From an uncultured Pelagibacteraceae bacterium (GTDB taxonomy: Bacteria > Pseudomonadota > Alphaproteobacteria > Pelagibacterales > Pelagibacteraceae): a stretch of 53,104 bases of DNA. Of the stretch, positions 593-17,526 are shown piece after piece. The notes under the pieces were generated by a model. The model saw only the letters and a list, made by a program, of their open reading frames with translations. It made no database searches and had not been told where the DNA came from. The stretch lies in NCBI GenBank assembly GCA_902629695.1, contig CACORY010000007.1, positions 1 to 53,104 of the forward strand, given 5' to 3'. Numbering within the stretch: position 1 is the first letter of the stretch; the number at the start of each line of letters is the position of its first letter. Made by a program: the position numbers and the translations under genes.

Positions 593-2938
593 ATGAAAAA
601 TTTAATTAAAATTAGGCAAAGTGTATTCAAAGGTGTAATTAAGCCTAAAATATTTTTAATTTTATTTGCATTTATCTTTTCATCTCTAGCTTTTGCAGCA
701 ACTTTGACGGTCACTTGGTTAGATGGAAGAATACCAGGAGGTAATGCTAATTGTAAAAGTTTTGATAACGAAACAATGGATCAAGACAGCACCGAAGACC
801 CAATGGACGTTGCTTTTAGCACAGATGGTTTAATGGTTTTTTCTGGTAACTTAAGACAAGACAATGATCGAGGTATTGGTAATTTATCTATGAACAGATT
901 AGGTACAGCTTTCGATATGACTACAGTAAAAAATAGTGATTGTAATGACCTTGATGCATTTAGGATTAATCTTGCATCAGGCGGTGAACTTGGAGGAGAT
1001 ATTGAGAATATTCAGATAGTAGATGATGGTAAAAAATTTTTCATTATGGATCGATCTGGAGAACTTGGAAGATTTGATTTATCTACACCTAATGAATTTG
1101 AAACATTTACATATGTTGGAAAACTTTCATTTTCAAATGAAAAAGATTCTTTTGCAATAAGCAGAGATGGTACAAAAGTTTTTACTTTAAACTCTACTAA
1201 TAATGCTCCTACTGTCACCACTTTTTCACTTCCAGGTCCTTACGATGTTTCTTCAAAATCAGAAACGCATCAAGTCAATTTAACAACTCTTGGTCTTGAA
1301 TTAAATGATGGGTCTGATGACAATGGAAGTGATATTGAATTTAATAATACAGGAAGTGCGATGTTTGTTTTAATGAAAAATGACACTTTCGATGGCTCAA
1401 AATTACCATTTAGTTTTATTCATCAATTTAAATTAGGAAAAAACTTTGATGTATCAACTGCTGAGTATGTTGGAAAATATCAAGTTGCCGACTTTGGTAA
1501 TGTGCATTCATCTAGAGAGGGGACAGGGAAGCCAAGAGGTTTTACTTTTTCACCAGATGGGATGAAAATATTTATTGTAGAAATTCAAGGAAATTTTGGT
1601 GGCGCCAATTCAGTAGATCAAATTAACTCGTTTCAATTAGAATGTCCTTATGGTCTAGTTGCTTGTGTGTCAGAACCAAATGCAATTATTGGTTCTCAAG
1701 TTGAATTAGCTAAACAAAATATTGCTTTAAATATTTCTACAATTTTTAAAAGATTTGAATGGATTAAAAGAAATAGAGATCAAGAAGATCTTACGAGCCA
1801 TAACATAAATTTAAATTATCCTAACCCTTTATTAGAGGCTCTAGCAATGAACCTTGAACCAAAAGCAAAAAAAACTATTGCATCTCTGGTGAGTAAAAAT
1901 CAAAAAAATAAGAAAAAATCTAAATGGTCCTCATGGAGTTTAGGAGATATTTATATTGGTAACTTTGAAAAATTAGGATTTGAAAAAGCAAAAAGCATTA
2001 AGGCAAAAGGACTTACAATAGGTGCCGATAGAAAACTTGGAGAAAATAAATTTTTTGGCTGGGCTATACGATATGGAGATAATAAATCAAATATTTATAC
2101 CTCTCAACAAAATACAGAAATGGAGTCGTTAACATTTAATTTATATGGAATTACGCCAACTAAAGATAACAAATATATAAATGCAGTGGTAGGTTTAAGT
2201 GCATTAAGAATTGATAGTATTTACTTAGGAAAGATATCTGGACGTAGAAATGGTAAGCAAGCTTTTTCAACAATAAATTTCAGAACAAAAAATCATTATG
2301 GCAAATTAAATATTACTCCATCTGGAAAACTCACTTACGGGATTACAAGACTATCTGATTATACTGACTTTATAAGTATGACAATAAACCCATCTACAAC
2401 TGATGTAATATATGACTCAGATACTTTTGAAAGTGGAGAGTTAGCAGCAGGTATATTATTTGAAACAGAGGAATTTAAAACTGAGTGGGGTACTATCCGT
2501 CCAATGGGAGCAATAGATTTTATTTATGACTTTACTTCTGATATTCATTACAATTATTCCTATTCAGGCTCCAGTGAAGTGAATCAAGATACTATTACCG
2601 GTGCTTATTCTAAAAGAAACTTAAGAACTACCATTGGTTTTGAGGCTATATACATTGATGGTTATACTCTTTCTCCTATTTACGAAAAAGTTTCTAAAAT
2701 AGAAGAAGGGAAGATTAGAGAAACTATTTCAGAGACGTTTATTATAAAGTTAAGTCGCACAAAAGAGGAAAACAATAGTAGTTTTGCATTAAATTTTGAT
2801 CCATTTTCAGATAAGCCTGCTAATTTAAGTTATACAAAAAAAATTAATGGTTTAGATATTAAATTAAATTCAAATTATTTTGGATTTAACAATAGTGTTG
2901 ATTATTTTACAAATTTTGAAATCTCAGGAACTTTTTAG
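593..2938 (+). CDS. Secreted beta-propeller-like protein with autotransporter-like C-terminal barrel
   Basis: Protein of 781 residues. Residues 1-35 form a long basic n-region, a hydrophobic core and an AFA|A signal-peptidase site. Residues 36 to about 360 contain repeated blade-like units of the type AFSTDGLMVF, AISRDGTKVF and FSPDGMKIFI, as in WD40/LVIVD-type beta-propellers. A short Cys-containing linker follows (CPYGLVAC). The last 290 or so residues alternate polar and hydrophobic positions (IYIGNFEKLG, KGLTIGADRKLG, GWAIRYGDN) and end in an aromatic residue (EISGTF), as expected for an outer-membrane autotransporter barrel. It is likely a surface-exposed or secreted protein; its ligand is unknown. 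Its 3' end overlaps the convergent glutaredoxin gene by 15 bp. The class is well supported; the function is not. Confidence 0.7.
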   Translation: MKNLIKIRQSVFKGVIKPKIFLILFAFIFSSLAFAATLTVTWLDGRIPGGNANCKSFDNETMDQDSTEDPMDVAFSTDGLMVFSGNLRQDNDRGIGNLSMNRLGTAFDMTTVKNSDCNDLDAFRINLASGGELGGDIENIQIVDDGKKFFIMDRSGELGRFDLSTPNEFETFTYVGKLSFSNEKDSFAISRDGTKVFTLNSTNNAPTVTTFSLPGPYDVSSKSETHQVNLTTLGLELNDGSDDNGSDIEFNNTGSAMFVLMKNDTFDGSKLPFSFIHQFKLGKNFDVSTAEYVGKYQVADFGNVHSSREGTGKPRGFTFSPDGMKIFIVEIQGNFGGANSVDQINSFQLECPYGLVACVSEPNAIIGSQVELAKQNIALNISTIFKRFEWIKRNRDQEDLTSHNINLNYPNPLLEALAMNLEPKAKKTIASLVSKNQKNKKKSKWSSWSLGDIYIGNFEKLGFEKAKSIKAKGLTIGADRKLGENKFFGWAIRYGDNKSNIYTSQQNTEMESLTFNLYGITPTKDNKYINAVVGLSALRIDSIYLGKISGRRNGKQAFSTINFRTKNHYGKLNITPSGKLTYGITRLSDYTDFISMTINPSTTDVIYDSDTFESGELAAGILFETEEFKTEWGTIRPMGAIDFIYDFTSDIHYNYSYSGSSEVNQDTITGAYSKRNLRTTIGFEAIYIDGYTLSPIYEKVSKIEEGKIRETISETFIIKLSRTKEENNSSFALNFDPFSDKPANLSYTKKINGLDIKLNSNYFGFNNSVDYFTNFEISGTF

Positions 2939-3184
2939 TAAATCTTGAAGTTTATTTTCTTTTTCTAACGCTCTAACTTCATCATAACCACCAATGTGTT
3001 GATCATCAAAAAATATTTGTGGAATAGTTCTTTTACCGTTTGCTTTTTTAATCATTTCATCCATAGCCCCATCAACTGTTGCAATATTAATTTCATTGTA
3101 GCTTGCGTTGTTCCTAGTTAATAATCTTTTTGCAGCATCACAATAATTACAAAACGGACCTGTGTAGATTGTAATTTTTTTCAT
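2924..3184 (-). CDS. grxC: Glutaredoxin 3 family (GrxC)
   Basis: An 86-residue thioredoxin-fold protein, the usual length for class I dithiol glutaredoxins. The active site is CNYC (C12/C15) just after the first beta strand. The cis-proline segment RTIPQIFF and the glutathione-binding GGYDE segment are both present. It reduces protein and mixed glutathione disulfides in the cytoplasm. The stop codon overlaps the end of the convergent autotransporter-like gene by 15 bp. The gene is downstream of the DUF2805 gene with only 3 bp between them, so the two are probably co-transcribed. Confidence 0.93.
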   Translation of the reverse strand: MKKITIYTGPFCNYCDAAKRLLTRNNASYNEINIATVDGAMDEMIKKANGKRTIPQIFFDDQHIGGYDEVRALEKENKLQDLLKSS

Positions 3185-3187
3185 ATT

Positions 3188-3484
3188 TTATAAGTAATCA
3201 CTTTTTTTTAATTTACTAGATAATTGTTTTCGAGAATATTCAAATTTTTTTCTGTGTTTAATACTTTTTTCATGAACTCTTTTTCTCCATAATCTAAATG
3301 ATGAGGGTTTAAGGGATCGTCTCATAATTTTTATAACAGCAGATTCTGAGTAGCCAGTCTTTTTTTTGATTTCCTCAAAAGTAATCCGATCAGCCCAAGC
3401 TGCCCATATGACCCAATCTGGACTTTCCAGGTTTGGCTCTGGATTTTTGACTTTGGTAATTGGCCTGTGACCTTTTTTTTTCAT
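3188..3484 (-). CDS. DUF2805/TIGR03643-family small protein
   Basis: A basic protein of about 98 residues. The core DWVIWAAWADRITFEEI followed by TGYSESAVIKIMRRSLKPSS and RLWRKRV is the signature I associate with the TIGR03643/DUF2805 family of unknown function. The central part looks like a helix-turn-helix. I place the start at the ATG at 3484, because it has AAGGA four bases upstream and the nine residues of the longer frame (from 3511) look like leader. It lies directly upstream of grxC. Nucleic-acid binding is plausible from the charge and the HTH look, but it is inference. Confidence 0.78.
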   Translation of the reverse strand: MKKKGHRPITKVKNPEPNLESPDWVIWAAWADRITFEEIKKKTGYSESAVIKIMRRSLKPSSFRLWRKRVHEKSIKHRKKFEYSRKQLSSKLKKSDYL

Positions 3485-3548
3485 AAATCCTTTATATTTG
3501 AAAAAAATCAATAATGCATTTTTTTTAGGATCTGATATATTAGAATCT

Positions 3549-3604
3549 GATAGTCCTTCTTAGCCATCTTTAGCTCCCGGTTTTTAAGGACTATCTTTTT
3601 TTTT
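3549..3604 (+). promoter_or_regulatory. Leader hairpin with U-tract covering the putative SD of the LysE gene
   Basis: A perfect 10-bp inverted repeat, GATAGTCCTT (3549-3558) and AAGGACTATC (3586-3595), encloses a 27-nt loop and is followed by nine T residues ending at 3604. The ATG of the LysE-family gene is the next base. The only Shine-Dalgarno-like sequence, AAGGA (3586-3590), is inside the 3' arm. The element therefore resembles an intrinsic terminator and could also hide the ribosome site. A terminator for upstream + strand transcription is unlikely to be needed here, as both upstream neighbours run on the - strand. A cis-regulatory leader or small RNA are the main options. Confidence 0.6.
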
Positions 3605-4219
3605 ATGCTCCCCTTAGATTTTTTCCTTTTTTTGCAGATTATAATCTTTTTATTTATCACACCCGGAACTCCTCGAGTTGTCATTGTATCTTACTCAATG
3701 AATTATGGTGTTAAAAATTGTATTTGGACTGCTTTAGGAGACATTACTGCAAATTTATTTCAAGCAACTTTAGTAATTTTTGTTATTGGAAATTTTTTGT
3801 CAGATAATCCTGGATTTTTAAATTTATTTAAATGGTTAGGAGTGTTGTATTTAGTTTATTTAGCTTATGATGTGTACAAATCTTCACCTAAAGATGTAAA
3901 TTCAAAAAAAATTACAACAAAAAGTATTTTTTCTTTTTTTAAAGATGGTTTCTTAGTTGCAGGCACAAGTCCAAAGGCATGGTTGTTTTTTCCGTTAATA
4001 TTTCCTCAATTTATTGACTTCAACACCAACTATGTGGTGCAATTTTTTATTTTGATTACTACGTATGTTGTTTTAGATTTTATCTCTTTAATTGGTTATG
4101 CATTACTCGCACAAAAACTTATTACGTGGATTAAAGCAAATCCTAAAACAATTAATACAATCTCAGCGAGTGTTTTAGTTATAATAGCTTTAATTATTAT
4201 TGTAACACAACAATATTAA
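3605..4219 (+). CDS. LysE/RhtB-family amino-acid exporter
   Basis: 204 residues with about six hydrophobic segments. The N-terminal FITPGTPR corresponds to the family's TPGP motif near residue 20, and FKWLGVLYLVYLAYD matches the conserved third-helix region (LKxxGaxYLxyLa). A second family landmark, GTSPKAWLFF, corresponds to NPKxxLFF. Members export amino acids or related metabolites. The third residue of the usual PGP signature is changed (PGTP). The start at 3605 gives the normal distance to the TPG motif, so it is trusted even though its only SD-like sequence is buried in the preceding hairpin. The substrate cannot be inferred. Confidence 0.85.
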   Translation: MLPLDFFLFLQIIIFLFITPGTPRVVIVSYSMNYGVKNCIWTALGDITANLFQATLVIFVIGNFLSDNPGFLNLFKWLGVLYLVYLAYDVYKSSPKDVNSKKITTKSIFSFFKDGFLVAGTSPKAWLFFPLIFPQFIDFNTNYVVQFFILITTYVVLDFISLIGYALLAQKLITWIKANPKTINTISASVLVIIALIIIVTQQY

Positions 4220-4245
4220 TGCATGCCCAAAGTAGTTTTTGCCTC

Positions 4246-4274
4246 TTGCAATAGATTAAAATTATTTATTTAAT
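4246..4274 (+). promoter_or_regulatory. Possible sigma-70 promoter for livJ-1
   Basis: TTGCAA (4246-4251), a 17-bp spacer and TTTAAT (4269-4274) precede the binding-protein gene. The rest of the leader is an AT-rich run of TTAATTAA-like repeats followed by an AGAAGGA ribosome site just before the ATG at 4310. In DNA this AT-rich such matches are common, so support is only moderate. Confidence 0.35.
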
Positions 4275-4309
4275 TAAGAATTAATTAATTAATAACAGAA
4301 GGAAATAAA

Positions 4310-5548
4310 ATGAAAATCAATAAGATAATCTTGAGTTTTATTTCTGCAGTAGCAATTTTACTTTCAACTTCAGTTGTTTCTTTTGCAAAAGTAGTTGGTG
4401 ATAAAATTGTTTTAGGTGCTGCTATTTCATTAACTGGAAAATATTCATCTAATGGTGTTCATACACAAAACGGTTATAACATGGCTGTTGATAGAATTAA
4501 TAGCATGGGTGGTGTTAAAGTTGGTGGAAAAACTTATAAGTTTGAAATCATTTATTATGATGATGAATCAAACCCAAAAAGAGCAGCTCAGTTAGCAGAA
4601 AGATTAATCTCACAAGATGGTGTTGAGTTTATGCTTGGGCCATATAGTTCAGGTTTAACAAAAGCAATTGCTCCTGTAACAGAAAAGTATGGTGTGCCAA
4701 TGGTTGAAGCAAATGGTGCTTCTAGATCTTTATTTACAAAAGGTTATAAATATCTATTTGCAGTGTTAGCTCCAGCAAACTTATATCTTGATGTTGCTAT
4801 TAGAACAGCAGTTGAGTTAAATGGTGGAAAAGGTGTAAGAATTGCACAAGCATTTGAACAAGATGCATTTTCACAAGACGTTAGATTAGGTATTTTAGAT
4901 GCAGCAAAAGACACTGGATCTGAAATTATAATCGATGATAAGCTTCCAAAAGAGCTTAACGATATGGCTGCAACATTAGTTAAAGTAAAACAAATGAAGC
5001 CAGACGTACTTGTTGTATCAGGACACACAAAAGGTGCATTAACTGCAATCAGACAAATTGCTGAAATGAAAGTTGATGTTCCAATGTTAGCAATGACACA
5101 CTGTGATGCTGCGAAATTATCAAAACAACATGGTAAAAATTCTCAGTACGCTTTATGTGCTTCTCAATGGCATAAAACACTAACATATAAAGATAACTTC
5201 TTTAAAGATGGTATGACTTATGCGGCAGATTTCCAAAAAGAATTTGGATATGATCCGCCGTACCAATCAGCAGAGTCTTCTGCAGCATTGTTAGTTTTTA
5301 AAGATGCATTTGAGAGAGCGAATTCTTTCGATCAAAAGAAAGTAAGAGACGCTCTTGCAGCGACTAATATGCAGACATTCTATGGAAATATTAAATTTGC
5401 ACCGGGTGGTCAAAATGTTGACAAGCCTATGGTACTTTTCCAAGTAATGTGTGATAGCTCTGGGAAATGTGAAAATAAAGTTGTAGCTCCACTTAAGTGG
5501 GCATCAGCTAAATTGATTCACCCAATTCCTAAGTGGTCTAAAAGATAA
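4310..5548 (+). CDS. livJ: Branched-chain amino-acid-type ABC periplasmic binding protein (first cluster)
   Basis: 412 residues with a signal peptide (about residues 1-26, cleaved after SFA). The mature part starts KIVLGAAISLTGKYSSNG, the typical type I periplasmic-binding fold of LivJ/UrtA proteins, followed by EIIYYDDESNPKRAAQLAE and LISQDGVEFMLGPYSSG. It delivers ligand to the permease and ATPase encoded just downstream. A strong AGAAGGA ribosome site precedes the start, and an intrinsic terminator follows before livH, which suggests that the binding protein is made in excess. Amino acids are the family default; urea, amides or glutarate-related acids cannot be excluded. The nearby azlCD and glaH genes would fit amino-acid or dicarboxylate ligands. 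Confidence 0.9.
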   Translation: MKINKIILSFISAVAILLSTSVVSFAKVVGDKIVLGAAISLTGKYSSNGVHTQNGYNMAVDRINSMGGVKVGGKTYKFEIIYYDDESNPKRAAQLAERLISQDGVEFMLGPYSSGLTKAIAPVTEKYGVPMVEANGASRSLFTKGYKYLFAVLAPANLYLDVAIRTAVELNGGKGVRIAQAFEQDAFSQDVRLGILDAAKDTGSEIIIDDKLPKELNDMAATLVKVKQMKPDVLVVSGHTKGALTAIRQIAEMKVDVPMLAMTHCDAAKLSKQHGKNSQYALCASQWHKTLTYKDNFFKDGMTYAADFQKEFGYDPPYQSAESSAALLVFKDAFERANSFDQKKVRDALAATNMQTFYGNIKFAPGGQNVDKPMVLFQVMCDSSGKCENKVVAPLKWASAKLIHPIPKWSKR

Positions 5549-5560
5549 TAACTAATCTAT

Positions 5561-5595
5561 AAATACCCCCTAAATTTTAGGGGGTATTTTTTTTT
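5561..5595 (+). terminator. Intrinsic terminator/attenuator between livJ-1 and livH-1
   Basis: A perfect 13-bp stem, AAATACCCCCTAA (5561-5573) and TTAGGGGGTATTT (5577-5589), with a 3-nt loop and nine T residues (5587-5595). It begins 12 bp after the livJ stop and ends 11 bp before the livH start, inside the operon. Partial read-through would give a high binding-protein to permease ratio. Confidence 0.92.
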
Positions 5596-5606
5596 AAGGG
5601 CATTTT

Positions 5607-6500
5607 ATGGATTTCATGGTTTTCCAATATCCGATGATAACTGTTCAAGCTTGTTTGGATGGAATTCTGCTTGGCATTTTATTTGCATTGATTGCTTATG
5701 GTATGGCTTTGCAATGGGGTGTTATGAATATCATTAATATTGCCCAAGGTGATTTGGTTATTCTTGGAGGGTACATTGCTTACTTTATGTATCTCTATGG
5801 AATTCATCCTGCTTGGGGTGTGATTGTATCACCAATTATAATGTATTTTGTTGGAGTCGGAATTTATAAATTAGTAATAAATAAAGTTGTAGATCGAGAT
5901 TTATTTATCTCAATCCTTGCAACTTTTGGAATAAGTATTCTTTTCATGCAGCTAATGAACTTTGCATTTGGTGCAGATGTTGTTTTAGCTAACTCGGGTT
6001 ATGGAACTACATTTTTATTTGATAATGCAGTAGTTTTACCAAATTCAAAAATATTTTCTGCTTTTATAAGTATTGTATTTGCCATTTGTTTAGTAATTTA
6101 TATGAAAAAATCTAAACTTGGCCGTGCAATAAGAGCAACTGCACAAAACGCTAGAGCTGCAAAGATTTTAGGAGTTGATACTGAAAAAGTTTATGCTGCT
6201 ACTTTTGGTATTAATGCTGCACTTTGTGGTGTTGCTGGAGCATTAATATCAATAACTTTCACAATTCATCCTTATATGGGGTTACCTTATACAATTCGAT
6301 CATTTATGATTGTAATTGTTGCAGGATTAGGAAATTTACCTGGTGTTGCAATGTCAGGTATGGGACTTGGTGTATTTGAAGAGTTTGCTGATTATATATT
6401 GGGCACGGAATTTAGAATAGGTTCTGTGTTTTTACTATTAGTTTTAATTCTTGTTTATAGAAGATTTAAATTATCAAGAAAAAGAGAATACCTGAAATAA
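5607..6500 (+). CDS. livH: Branched-chain-type ABC permease LivH (first cluster)
   Basis: 297 residues, about eight membrane segments. The family landmarks are clear: GILFALIAYGMALQWGVMNIINIAQGD near the N-terminus (the LivH GxxxxLxGxxxxINxAxGd region), GRAIRATAQNARAAKILGV in the cytoplasmic coupling loop, and GALISI followed by GLGNLPG near the C-terminus. It forms the transmembrane channel with LivM. An AAGGG ribosome site sits just after the terminator T-tract. The stop overlaps the livM start by one base. Confidence 0.93.
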   Translation: MDFMVFQYPMITVQACLDGILLGILFALIAYGMALQWGVMNIINIAQGDLVILGGYIAYFMYLYGIHPAWGVIVSPIIMYFVGVGIYKLVINKVVDRDLFISILATFGISILFMQLMNFAFGADVVLANSGYGTTFLFDNAVVLPNSKIFSAFISIVFAICLVIYMKKSKLGRAIRATAQNARAAKILGVDTEKVYAATFGINAALCGVAGALISITFTIHPYMGLPYTIRSFMIVIVAGLGNLPGVAMSGMGLGVFEEFADYILGTEFRIGSVFLLLVLILVYRRFKLSRKREYLK

Positions 6501-7549: not shown

Positions 7550-8286
7550 GTATTTTAGAAGTTAATAATGTTAGTAAATCTTTTGGTGGTGTTAAAGCTA
7601 ATGTTGACATTTCAATGACGGTTGAAAAAGGAAAAATATTTGGATTAATTGGTCCAAACGGTTCAGGAAAAACAACTTTATTCAACTCAATAGTTGGAAC
7701 TTATCCTATAGACAATGGTTCTATCAAATTTAATGGCAAAGAAGTTTCTGAATTACCTGTGCCAGTAATTGCTAAACTTGGATTATTAAGAACATTTCAG
7801 CAAACAAGAATTTACGGAAAATTAAATTGTGTAGATAATATGCTTATTAGTCACAAAGGAAGTGATGAAAGTATATTAAAAATATTTTCTAAAATTCCAA
7901 AAGACCTAACTGAAAAGGCAGAAAATTTATTGAACTTTGTTGGACTTTATCAAAAAAGAAAATTAAGAGCTGGTGATTTATCGTTTGGTCAACAAAAACT
8001 TTTAGAATTAGCAATGGCATTAATGAATGAGCCAGAAATGCTTTTATTAGATGAACCAACTGCTGGTATTAACCCAACATTGATCAATGGAATTATTGAT
8101 CGGTTGATTAAAGTAAATCAAGATTTTGGAATAACTCTTTTAGTTATTGAACATAATATGAGAGTTATTATGCAATTAGCAGAAAGTATTTACTGTTTAG
8201 CTCATGGCAAAATGCTTGCAAAAGGCACACCAGATGAAATTAAAAATGATAAACGTGTTATCGATGCGTATTTGGGAGCTCAATAA
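7546..8286 (+). CDS. livG: ABC transporter ATPase LivG (first cluster)
   Basis: 246 residues. Walker A is GPNGSGKTT (about 37-45), the LivG-specific LLRTFQQTRIY follows, the ABC signature appears as DLSFGQQKLLELAMAL (LSFGQ rather than LSGGQ), Walker B is MLLLDEPTAGI, and the switch histidine is in VIEHNM. It powers the LivHM channel together with LivF. It overlaps livM by 4 bp and livF by 1 bp. Confidence 0.94.
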   Translation: MSILEVNNVSKSFGGVKANVDISMTVEKGKIFGLIGPNGSGKTTLFNSIVGTYPIDNGSIKFNGKEVSELPVPVIAKLGLLRTFQQTRIYGKLNCVDNMLISHKGSDESILKIFSKIPKDLTEKAENLLNFVGLYQKRKLRAGDLSFGQQKLLELAMALMNEPEMLLLDEPTAGINPTLINGIIDRLIKVNQDFGITLLVIEHNMRVIMQLAESIYCLAHGKMLAKGTPDEIKNDKRVIDAYLGAQ

Positions 8287-15678: not shown

Positions 15679-15750
15679 ATGAAATATATTATTACAGGTG
15701 CTGCAATAGCTTGGGCTTTATATATGGCAGATAAATATTTATTTTTTTAA
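15679..15750 (+). CDS. Possible 23-residue membrane peptide
   Basis: A tiny ORF, MKYIITGAAIAWALYMADKY plus three residues, starts 4 bp after the livM-2 stop. It is hydrophobic in the middle like a single transmembrane helix, has no clear ribosome site, and its last 12 bp overlap the end of the convergent 55-residue ORF. It could be a coupled membrane micro-protein of the transporter operon or chance. Comparison with the same gap in related genomes would decide. Confidence 0.3.
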   Translation: MKYIITGAAIAWALYMADKYLFF

Positions 15751-15906
15751 AGTCCAGCCATTCTTTATTAATGCTTTAATTAAATTTTCTTTCATTTCGT
15801 CTCTAGAGGTATTTTTATCACCTATTTTTTCAAAGAATACAGGCTCTAAACCTTTATCCTTTTTTGATTTAAAGTAGTTTTTAATTGATTGTATTTTTAG
15901 TTTCAT
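15739..15906 (-). CDS. Small basic hypothetical protein (55 aa)
   Basis: A 55-residue ORF rich in lysine, beginning MKLKIQSIKNYFKSKKDKG and ending NGWTLKK. It has the best ribosome site in this gap, AAAGGAG five bases upstream of the ATG. Its start overlaps the stop of the 26-residue ORF (ATGA), so it is probably translated in tandem from the same - strand message as the zinc-module nuclease. I do not recognise a family. Confidence 0.55.
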   Translation of the reverse strand: MKLKIQSIKNYFKSKKDKGLEPVFFEKIGDKNTSRDEMKENLIKALIKNGWTLKK

Positions 15907-15983
15907 TTTTCTCCTTTAGCGTTGTGTTTAAAGTCCCAGCAAGTAGAGTTATTTTCTAAATCAGGACAATATAAACTTATCAT
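15903..15983 (-). CDS. Possible 26-residue ORF coupled to the nuclease gene
   Basis: The frame MISLYCPDLENNSTCWDFKH plus six residues starts at the base directly after the stop codon of the 499-residue nuclease gene (TAAATG) and ends in an ATGA overlap with the 55-residue ORF. The tight junctions on both sides are the main support. Two cysteines are present. It may be a real micro-protein or only a translational bridge. Confidence 0.38.
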   Translation of the reverse strand: MISLYCPDLENNSTCWDFKHNAKGEK

Positions 15984-17483
15984 TTATTTACATTTTTGAC
16001 ACCAGGTATTTTGATATTTGACATCATTCGGTGTTGAGTAAAATATGTGGTTATTCTTACAAATCCATTTAAGCTTCGTTTTTGTATTAGAGTATTTTTC
16101 AGATAAACAGTCCCCTCCTTTTGACAAGGCTATTTTCCTCATTTCATCTAAAGTTAATTGTTTAGATCCTCCACATTCAGGGCACCAGGTTCCGGTTAAA
16201 ATATTATAAACTCTTGCATTCCAGGTATGACCCTTTGAGCATCTCCATTTTAATGAAGTTGCGGTGTTTATGTAATTTTTTGATAAACATACACCACCTC
16301 TTTCTTTTGCAACATCCTGCATTTTCGAAATTCCTAATCGTCTTTTAAAACCCATTGATTTAGCCGCACATTTTCTGCACCACTTTTTCTGATTTTTTAT
16401 TGAGGCAGGTGTGGCATACCAAGTATGCCCTTCTGAACATTGCCATTTTAACTTTTGATTTGCATTAATATATTTTTTAGACAAACATTTTCCACCTCTA
16501 TCTTTGGCAATTTTTTGCATGGTTTTGATATTGATGACATGTTGGTAGACTTTATTAAAATCAATCTTCTTGGAAAAATCGATATTCTTAATATTAAAAT
16601 TTGAGTTTTCTAATTTTTTTTTAATTAAATTTGGAAGTTCTAAGAGATTATCTTTATATGAAAAAATTAATAAATATACGCCGTTTTTTTTGCATAATCT
16701 TAATTTCTCTTTATCATCATCTATTCTTTTAAATAAATTTTTTTTTGTAGAATAAAAAAATCCAGTTTTATAATGTTGAGGACCATTATACTCAAAACCT
16801 AATTTTATTTCTGAGCAATAACCGTCTAACTCCATTTTTTGATAATTGTAATTAATTAACCATTCTGGATAACTTCTAGGGAACTTTTTATTAAATAGTT
16901 GCTCCATAGTAGTTCTGCATAACGCTTCAGAATAATAAAATACACATTCAGGACACCATTGTCCTTTATTCTTAATACCTCGAGTTGTTGCATCCCATAT
17001 ATGGCCATTAGAACATTGCCATCGCATTTTAGTTTGACTGTTTTTATATTTTTTAGATAATAATTTTCCGCCCCTTTTTTTGGCTAATTCTTGTAATTGT
17101 TCAATTTCTAATTTTTTGCTTCCTCCACAATCAGGACACCAGGAACCTTGTTGAACACTGCTCGGAGTGGTCTCAAATTTATGACCCAATTCGCATAGCC
17201 ATAAAACCTTACTTTTTGCACGTATTATTTTTTTTGATAACAATTTTCCATTGTTTTTTTTTGCTAATAATTTGCACTCTTCAATAGTAACTTTAGATTT
17301 CCCAGAACATTTCGCACAAAAAGAATTTCTATGAATCAATCCTGTTGCTGTTTTAAAAAAAATATGACCATTTTTGCATTTAAATTTGTATTTAGTTTTA
17401 GAATTTATATATTTTGTTGATAAACAGATCCCACCAAAATTTTTTGCCTTTGTTTTAATTTTTTCAATGCCAATTAAACTCAT
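15984..17483 (-). CDS. Zinc-module repeat protein with restriction-endonuclease-like core
   Basis: 499 residues in three parts. Residues 1-184 are three repeats of about 60 residues, each with a GGxxLS..Y...T segment and a CxxGH...C-x2-C set (C36/H40/C56/C59; C97/H101/C116/C119; C157/H161/C177/C180). Residues 185 to about 310 form a core with ELDGYCSEIKLGFEYNGPQH and, 18 residues on, DDDKEKLRLCKKNGVYLLIF, a pattern like Vsr/DUF559-type PD-(D/E)xK nucleases (D220, E231, H237). Three more zinc repeats follow. The repeats resemble the probable zinc-ribbon DUF4379 family known from phages and giant viruses. I infer a DNA-binding nuclease, perhaps mobile. It lies between livJ-2 and livM-2, apparently splitting the importer genes. 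Confidence 0.75.
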   Translation of the reverse strand: MSLIGIEKIKTKAKNFGGICLSTKYINSKTKYKFKCKNGHIFFKTATGLIHRNSFCAKCSGKSKVTIEECKLLAKKNNGKLLSKKIIRAKSKVLWLCELGHKFETTPSSVQQGSWCPDCGGSKKLEIEQLQELAKKRGGKLLSKKYKNSQTKMRWQCSNGHIWDATTRGIKNKGQWCPECVFYYSEALCRTTMEQLFNKKFPRSYPEWLINYNYQKMELDGYCSEIKLGFEYNGPQHYKTGFFYSTKKNLFKRIDDDKEKLRLCKKNGVYLLIFSYKDNLLELPNLIKKKLENSNFNIKNIDFSKKIDFNKVYQHVINIKTMQKIAKDRGGKCLSKKYINANQKLKWQCSEGHTWYATPASIKNQKKWCRKCAAKSMGFKRRLGISKMQDVAKERGGVCLSKNYINTATSLKWRCSKGHTWNARVYNILTGTWCPECGGSKQLTLDEMRKIALSKGGDCLSEKYSNTKTKLKWICKNNHIFYSTPNDVKYQNTWCQKCK

Positions 17484-17489
17484 GGCTTT

Positions 17490-17518
17490 ATTTTATCAGT
17501 GGACAGTCAGCAGACCAA
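17490..17518 (-). promoter_or_regulatory. Probable promoter of the zinc-module nuclease gene
   Basis: Read on the - strand: TTGGTC (17518-17513), a 17-bp spacer, and TAAAAT (17495-17490). Transcription would start about seven bases on, at or very near the A of the ATG at 17483, so the message may be leaderless. No ribosome site is visible before that ATG, which fits. Confidence 0.45.
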
Positions 17519-17526
17519 TATTTATT

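Follow-up and report, generated by a model that had tools for sequence, protein, structure and literature searches.

The stretch of DNA analysed here (the window, 53,104 nucleotides from an uncultured Pelagibacteraceae bacterium) contains, between livM and livJ, what is probably a free-standing gene for a site-specific DNA endonuclease of the CapR/DUF4379-EDxHD(Vsr) homing kind, displaying selfish mobile behaviour. This interpretation draws on the intact ORF, its zinc modules, a modelled nuclease fold, near-invariant Glu, Asp, His and Asp residues, the signature of purifying selection and the absence of the gene from relatives. It is also suggested by the occurrence of the same junction with a small cassette but without the nuclease, and by a 91% identical copy of the gene beside a cassette of another lineage. 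A limited literature search on Pelagibacter and homing endonucleases brought up no paper that, judged by its listing, treats such a nuclease.

Architecture of the endonuclease

The ORF is intact, starts with ATG and encodes 499 amino acids. The first-pass annotation had described six zinc repeats around a Vsr-like core, and this description is borne out: the C-x3-H...C-x2-C ligands are intact in all six modules (residues 36-59, 97-119, 157-180, 349-372, 415-437 and 475-498), each of which is ~56-61 residues long. The components of the gene are as follows.

15984..17483, minus strand: endonuclease ORF, 499 aa, central Vsr/EDxHD-like core and six DUF4379/CapR-type zinc modules
17493..17518, minus strand: putative promoter region of the nuclease gene, recognised by eye, with a degenerate TGGTCCAC-type direct repeat
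17304..17474, minus strand: zinc module 1, residues 4-60 (C36, H40, C56, C59)
17124..17291, minus strand: zinc module 2, residues 65-120 (C97, H101, C116, C119)
16941..17111, minus strand: zinc module 3, residues 125-181 (C157, H161, C177, C180)
16584..16937, minus strand: nuclease core, residues 183-300, modelled Vsr/EDxHD-like fold (E186, D220, H237, D257)
16365..16547, minus strand: zinc module 4, residues 313-373 (C349, H353, C369, C372)
16170..16349, minus strand: zinc module 5, residues 379-438 (C415, H419, C434, C437)
15987..16154, minus strand: zinc module 6, residues 444-499 (C475, H479, C495, C498), missing in the L070 relative

Pfam returned DUF4379 (E 2e-22, five stretches) and CapR (E 1.6e-9, three stretches) for the protein, values at which the zinc-module assignment is not due to chance. 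No Pfam family matched core residues 183-300, the core alone found nothing significant among PDB sequences (best E 1.1), and a whole-protein profile gave only weak matches to solved structures (best E 0.044), one of which was to a DUF4379 mitoribosomal protein (E 0.77). The phage profile phrog_559, named 'HNH endonuclease', matched residues 8-324, within which the core lies (E 4.6e-62), and a second phage nuclease profile, phrog_681, matched at E 5.5e-50. An AlphaFold2 model built from 25 aligned sequences had a mean pLDDT of 84.8, with ten-residue blocks of the core at 75-97; at a pTM of 0.44 the relative placement of the zinc modules is not predicted. The modelled core (183-297) superimposed on E. 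coli Vsr (PDB 1cw0; Z 9.2, rmsd 3.1, 106 residues, 12% identity) and on the catalytic domain of I-Bth0305I (PDB 3r3p; Z 9.2, rmsd 2.8, 95 of 97 residues, 18% identity). A mitoribosomal chain of T. gondii scored about as well (Z 8.7), ahead of another Vsr entry (Z 8.3). Foldseek alone ranked Vsr first (E 0.059) and gave no match at E <= 0.001. The modelled zinc modules weakly resembled DUF4379-type mitoribosomal proteins (Z about 4). With Z at only 9.2, the model points with moderate strength to a Vsr/I-Bth0305I-like nuclease fold. Vsr, the very short patch repair endonuclease, thus shares the core fold, but it is a small mismatch-repair enzyme without zinc arrays. I-Bth0305I, an EDxHD enzyme, shares both the fold of the catalytic domain and the E-D-x-H-D order of residues; it is not known to bind DNA through an array of six zinc modules.

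An alignment of 115 core domains, with counts taken from ungapped rows, shows near-complete retention of E186 (104/104), D220 (112/113), H237 (112/112) and D257 (110/112), and also of E231 (112/113), K260 (111/113) and C264 (113/113). It should be emphasized that many homologues were fetched by peptide patterns containing LDGY or FEY-G-Q; as D220 and E231 lie inside these patterns their conservation was partly selected for, while E186, H237 and D257 lie outside them. The conserved residues follow the order E-D-x-H-D. Vsr uses E25, D51, H69 and D97. By family logic the catalytic set would be E186, D220, H237 and D257. Of the two residues initially proposed for mutation, D220 is therefore a good catalytic candidate, whereas E231, although so widely kept, would occupy the 'x' position.

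The closest published enzymes, described in 2025 as an outgroup of the EDxHD/Vsr homing endonucleases, are intron-encoded homing endonucleases in which three to five ~60-residue domains distantly related to CapR, DUF4379 and DUF723 accompany a C-terminal EDxHD/Vsr-like domain, and which have thousands of UniProt matches (accessible part of PMC12350094). The window's protein has in common with them the array of ~60-residue CapR/DUF4379-like zinc modules, an EDxHD/Vsr-like nuclease domain with conserved acidic and His residues (the fold match being moderate, Z 9.2) and mobility. In contrast with their order of modules followed by a C-terminal nuclease, the core here occupies residues 183-300 of 499 with modules on both sides, three of them after it, although that order is given in the same part of PMC12350094 as a description and is perhaps no requirement. 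The published enzymes are found in phage group I/II introns (PMC12350094, same part), whereas the window's gene is free-standing in a bacterial chromosome; by Rfam, no intron family reached gathering score in the window or in 17 homologue loci. T5orf172 (GIY-YIG) homing endonucleases with CapR/DUF723 repeats also possess repeated CapR-type zinc modules, which vary in number by recombination, but they contain another nuclease domain and hold their DNA-binding and nuclease parts at opposite termini; DNA binding by CapR zinc modules has been demonstrated in other proteins (all from the accessible part of PMC10448857).

We surveyed 111 ORFs whose core scored 60 bits or more, taken from window, plasmid, genome and viral loci with near-identical loci counted apart. 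Modules were detected on both sides of the core in 53, only before it in 28, only after it in three and nowhere in 27; the detection profile derives from the modules of the window protein itself and may overlook divergent ones. Three modules on each side were found in 10 of the 111, namely the window protein, five ORFs from Bacillota-labelled records (L074, L078, L082, L084 and the plasmid L011), a Pseudomonas-labelled record (L075), a Chitinophaga-labelled MAG (L099) and two viral contigs (L138 and L140). A central nuclease is thus, on these sequences, a common variant, and 3+3 symmetry is no rule. The three-plus-three layout was correctly read for the window protein, but it extends neither to the nearest relative, which is 3+2, nor to the family, and symmetry as a design principle is not supported, given the varying module numbers. 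The published kind covers the domains; the present case contributes an array on either side of the nuclease, a free-standing location in a chromosome and a position at the edge of a cassette.

A side observation from the homologue search concerns a Micrarchaeota-labelled record (L072) with two nuclease homologues, in which the first part of a tRNA gene (about 7784-7896, minus strand) is interrupted by roughly 50 bp, possibly an archaeal-type tRNA intron.

The livM-livJ junction and its dispersed cassette

livM and livJ are convergent, and the nuclease gene lies in the gap between them with no gene broken, which qualifies the earlier statement that it splits the second liv locus. The surrounding features are these.

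15679..15750, plus strand: 23-aa hydrophobic ORF directly after livM, the pre-existing end of the livM side (MKYIITGAAIAWALYMADKYLFF)
15739-15967, minus strand: cassette (leader and 55-aa ORF) adjoining the 3' end of the nuclease gene
15739..15906, minus strand: basic 55-aa ORF of the dispersed cassette
15907..15967, minus strand: cassette leader, SAM-II (SAM_alpha)-like (match spanning 15895-15977), candidate landing or target region
17516..17525, minus strand: ATAAATATTG, 10-bp microhomology at the livJ-side junction, read from the flanking sequences

Across the genus the nuclease was present in 3 of 399 genomes (E <= 1e-10): the window's own, G119 (38% identical) and G363, which by its coordinates is the genome of the second copy, L070. 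Among 397 family genomes it was found in the window's own and in one from another genus. The junction itself was compared in the best 30 of the 240 genus genomes with a livJ match. One of these was the window's own, and two of the 29 relatives (L043 and L044) lacked a readable livM, leaving 27 readable junctions. The gap was empty (129-136 bp) in 15, contained the cassette alone (gap about 380 bp) in two, a 389-aa transporter-like ORF in nine and three small ORFs in one (the last two classes being L024, L030, L032-L037, L041 and L042, with the small ORFs in L030). The 23-aa ORF recurs in relatives' junctions with small changes. The nuclease was missing from all 27, tblastn matching only the window's own loci. 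As gap contents differ among relatives, the junction is a variable site, and sporadic presence combined with alleles of the same site that lack the gene is how a homing gene behaves. Two findings had been named in advance as fatal to the first-pass annotation, universal conservation of the gene at this place with vertical phylogeny and a predicted structure lacking a nuclease fold; neither holds, given the modelled fold, the sporadic presence and the alleles without the gene.

The cassette was identified in 57 of 300 genus genomes at E < 1e-9, at many loci; the looser threshold of E <= 1e-3 gave 120, with many short matches. Many cassette-only alleles have a TATAAT-like box just upstream of the cassette, and the L070 version of the 55-aa protein had no Pfam match above cut-off. 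The leader runs GTCCTGATTTAG...GGGACTTTAAACACAACGCTAAAGGAG. Against the Rfam SAM_alpha model, for which the cut-off is 36 bits, it scored 20.1 bits in the window (E 0.019, a match that appeared only when a short stretch was searched) and 27.4 bits in L070 (E 1e-4); in a longer search SAM_alpha was listed at E <= 1 for three of five cassette loci, L045 and L048 being the exceptions. From its sequence, the leader loop could pair with the ribosome-binding stretch as an H-type pseudoknot. Pelagibacter is known to have SAM-II and SAM-V riboswitches (accessible parts of PMC5069961 and PMC2704228). No compensatory changes were seen on reading 25 leaders (L046 left out), which vary so little that covariation cannot support a riboswitch. 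The sole Rfam family at gathering score in the window is the rhtB sRNA (RF01814; 3531-3613, plus strand, 79.3 bits).

Two insertions beside apparently resident cassettes

The second copy, in Pelagibacteraceae record AH-326-O04 (L070), is 91% identical to the window's gene, has 3+2 modules and occupies another locus, a tRNA-Met island, beside a cassette of another lineage. In both genomes the nuclease lies on the 5' side of the leader, its stop codon 16 bp (window) or 10 bp (L070) from GTCCTGATTTAG, and the degenerate TGGTCCAC-type repeat of the window is akin to an intact repeat in front of the L070 gene. A dN/dS of 0.21 between the two genes (0.059/0.276, 437 codons) implies purifying selection. 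Synonymous divergence is uneven, affecting 22 of 116 codons in modules 1 and 5 and 9 of 179 in the core and module 4 (Fisher p 0.0003, a post hoc contrast), which suggests module exchange.

While the nuclease genes are 91% identical, the two cassettes share 85.9% identity. In a FastTree phylogeny of 26 sequences the window cassette groups with six livM-livJ cassettes (99.1-94.4% identical; support 0.971), a clade that also takes in L052 from another locus. The L070 cassette groups with the nuclease-free L055 and L060 beside the same tRNA-Met (96.2-96.6% identical; support 0.968), while three other tRNA-Met cassettes (L057, L061 and L067) fall outside its clade; judged from the tree, the match of lineage to locus is imperfect, owing to these three and L052. 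As each lineage has nuclease-free relatives at its own site, it seems that the nuclease entered two cassettes already in place and did not move together with either, a pattern that fits homing to a cassette-linked target. Moreover, ATAAATATTG is present both in the cassette-only allele L048, which represents the pre-insertion flank, and in the upstream flank of the L070 copy, indicative of a repair-type junction. In the L070 genome livJ is flanked differently, which makes the livM-livJ site unreadable there, and the window's assembly (79.75% complete) yielded no counterpart of the L070 tRNA-Met region. With only two close copies in the searched data and both reciprocal sites unreadable, the homing target is one that we infer.

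In the mechanism we propose, the zinc arrays on both sides would grip a long DNA site flanking the cut, and the Vsr-like core would cut or nick alleles without the gene at or near the 5' edge of the cassette. The break would then be repaired from a gene-bearing copy, using cassette homology at one end and the 10-bp microhomology at the other, and repair would install the nuclease gene without harm to the liv genes or the cassette.

Passengers, defence and other roles

It could be argued that the nuclease is not self-driven. The dispersed cassette, which some genomes carry inside small tRNA-anchored islands, would then act as a handle by which ordinary recombination moves whatever gene lies on its 5' side between loci, the nuclease being one cargo among several. 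We regard this as possible, if on the unlikely side. L047, at livM-livJ, and L053, at another locus, have in common 447 bp directly 5' of their cassettes (84% identical) with a 122-aa ORF unrelated to the nuclease (82% identical as protein), and L056 has the same ORF about 290 bp from its cassette. Other genes can thus occupy the cassette edge. This counts against homing, as another process may place genes there and the nuclease may simply be carried along. When Pfam was run on 10 ORFs 5' of cassettes, four exceeded the cut-off, two gave sub-cut-off matches and four gave none. The four comprised a helicase-associated domain (L060), an HNH endonuclease (L067, 505-1470; PF01844, E 6e-10), which ends about 30 bp 5' of the cassette, a dksA/traR zinc finger (L063) and a SinI restriction enzyme (L058); the first two are further cargo candidates.

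The islands also lend weight to passage as cargo. At three of the six tRNA-Met cassette loci an exact 63-nt copy of the 5' part of tRNA-Met lies across the cassette from the intact tRNA gene; no partial copy was seen in L055, L060 or L061 within the stretch fetched. The mini-islands with the copy are the following.

L070, 3868-5792: nuclease-bearing island, 63-nt copy at 3868-3930, intact tRNA-Met at 5716-5792
L067, 370-2697: tRNA-Met mini-island with 63-nt partial copy
L057, 691-2403: tRNA-Met mini-island with 63-nt partial copy

The flanks of the L070 island are thus tycheposon-like. Tycheposons with tRNA-Met are known from Methylophilaceae and carry a tyrosine recombinase (accessible part of PMC10872708), whereas no recombinase was seen among the ORFs of the L070 island (ATG start, at least 40 aa), which are the nuclease and the 55-aa ORF only. 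Close to each end of this island is an 11-bp direct repeat, TGGTCCACTGG, and the other tRNA-Met loci have related repeats; by sequence these are features resembling integrase arm sites. Of 151 genus genomes, 3 contain the exact 20-bp form of the repeat, always at most about 1.1 kb from a cassette match. L101, which encodes a 38% identical homologue, has two stacked segments (1227-5639) marked out by partial 3' copies, 54 and 45 nt long, of another tRNA-Met(CAT). A T5orf172-type GIY-YIG protein is encoded in one of them; the other contains the nuclease homologue and an ORF weakly like nucleotidyltransferases (below cut-off). The window copy is not tRNA-anchored in this way, as no tRNA reached gathering score in the window. 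A tRNA gene was present in 8 of 43 homologue loci, for which a baseline is lacking, and we claim no general tRNA linkage of the family.

Carriage as cargo is, however, at odds with the cassette-only alleles at both loci, which show that nuclease and cassette are separable, and one-sided homology does not explain the initiating break. The domain set, moreover, is known from homing endonucleases (PMC12350094, accessible part).

The first-pass annotation had left the choice between a selfish and a defence element open, and of the two a selfish, homing-type gene fits better. A nuclease that cuts phage or competing islands, with specificity supplied by its two arrays, is improbable. One cassette neighbourhood does contain the SinI-type restriction enzyme (L058), and HEG-type nucleases with related domains act in phage-satellite conflict (PMC10448857, accessible part). 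PADLOC, however, returned for the nuclease protein only PtuA, an ATPase model (17.7 bits, E 3.6e-4), and by eye no modification, immunity or partner gene was recognised beside the nuclease in the window or L070. Homologues do occur in viral contigs, one locus being found by a single-protein scan and 43 by an alignment-based scan, and tblastn matched 260 phage records with the whole protein but four with the core alone, so that the zinc modules may account for many of the whole-protein matches. Searches of viral contigs for the exact cassette and repeat patterns gave no match and hence revealed no phage vehicle. That the protein is a domesticated DNA-binding or repair factor which does not home is highly improbable. 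The repair role of Vsr, of the same fold, might point that way, but a conserved housekeeping function fits poorly with the patchy distribution of the gene, its varying number of modules and its mobile setting.

Few known genomes are as streamlined as those of SAR11. It is conceivable, but quite unlikely, that the nuclease is the mobility engine of small, recombinase-less, tRNA-anchored SAR11 islands, reading the cassette or tRNA, breaking alleles free of the island or gene and spreading cassettes and cargo by repair, with a SAM-sensing cassette as a genus-wide landing pad. Free-standing HEGs exist in other families, and homing to the cassette remains the reading we prefer. By comparing alleles that bear and lack the gene, this study connects a homing-type nuclease, flanked on both sides by zinc arrays, with a candidate landing site. 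If cleavage does occur at the cassette edge, it would explain how genes move among far-apart loci of a streamlined genome. It would also provide a natural zinc-array nuclease with a testable target.
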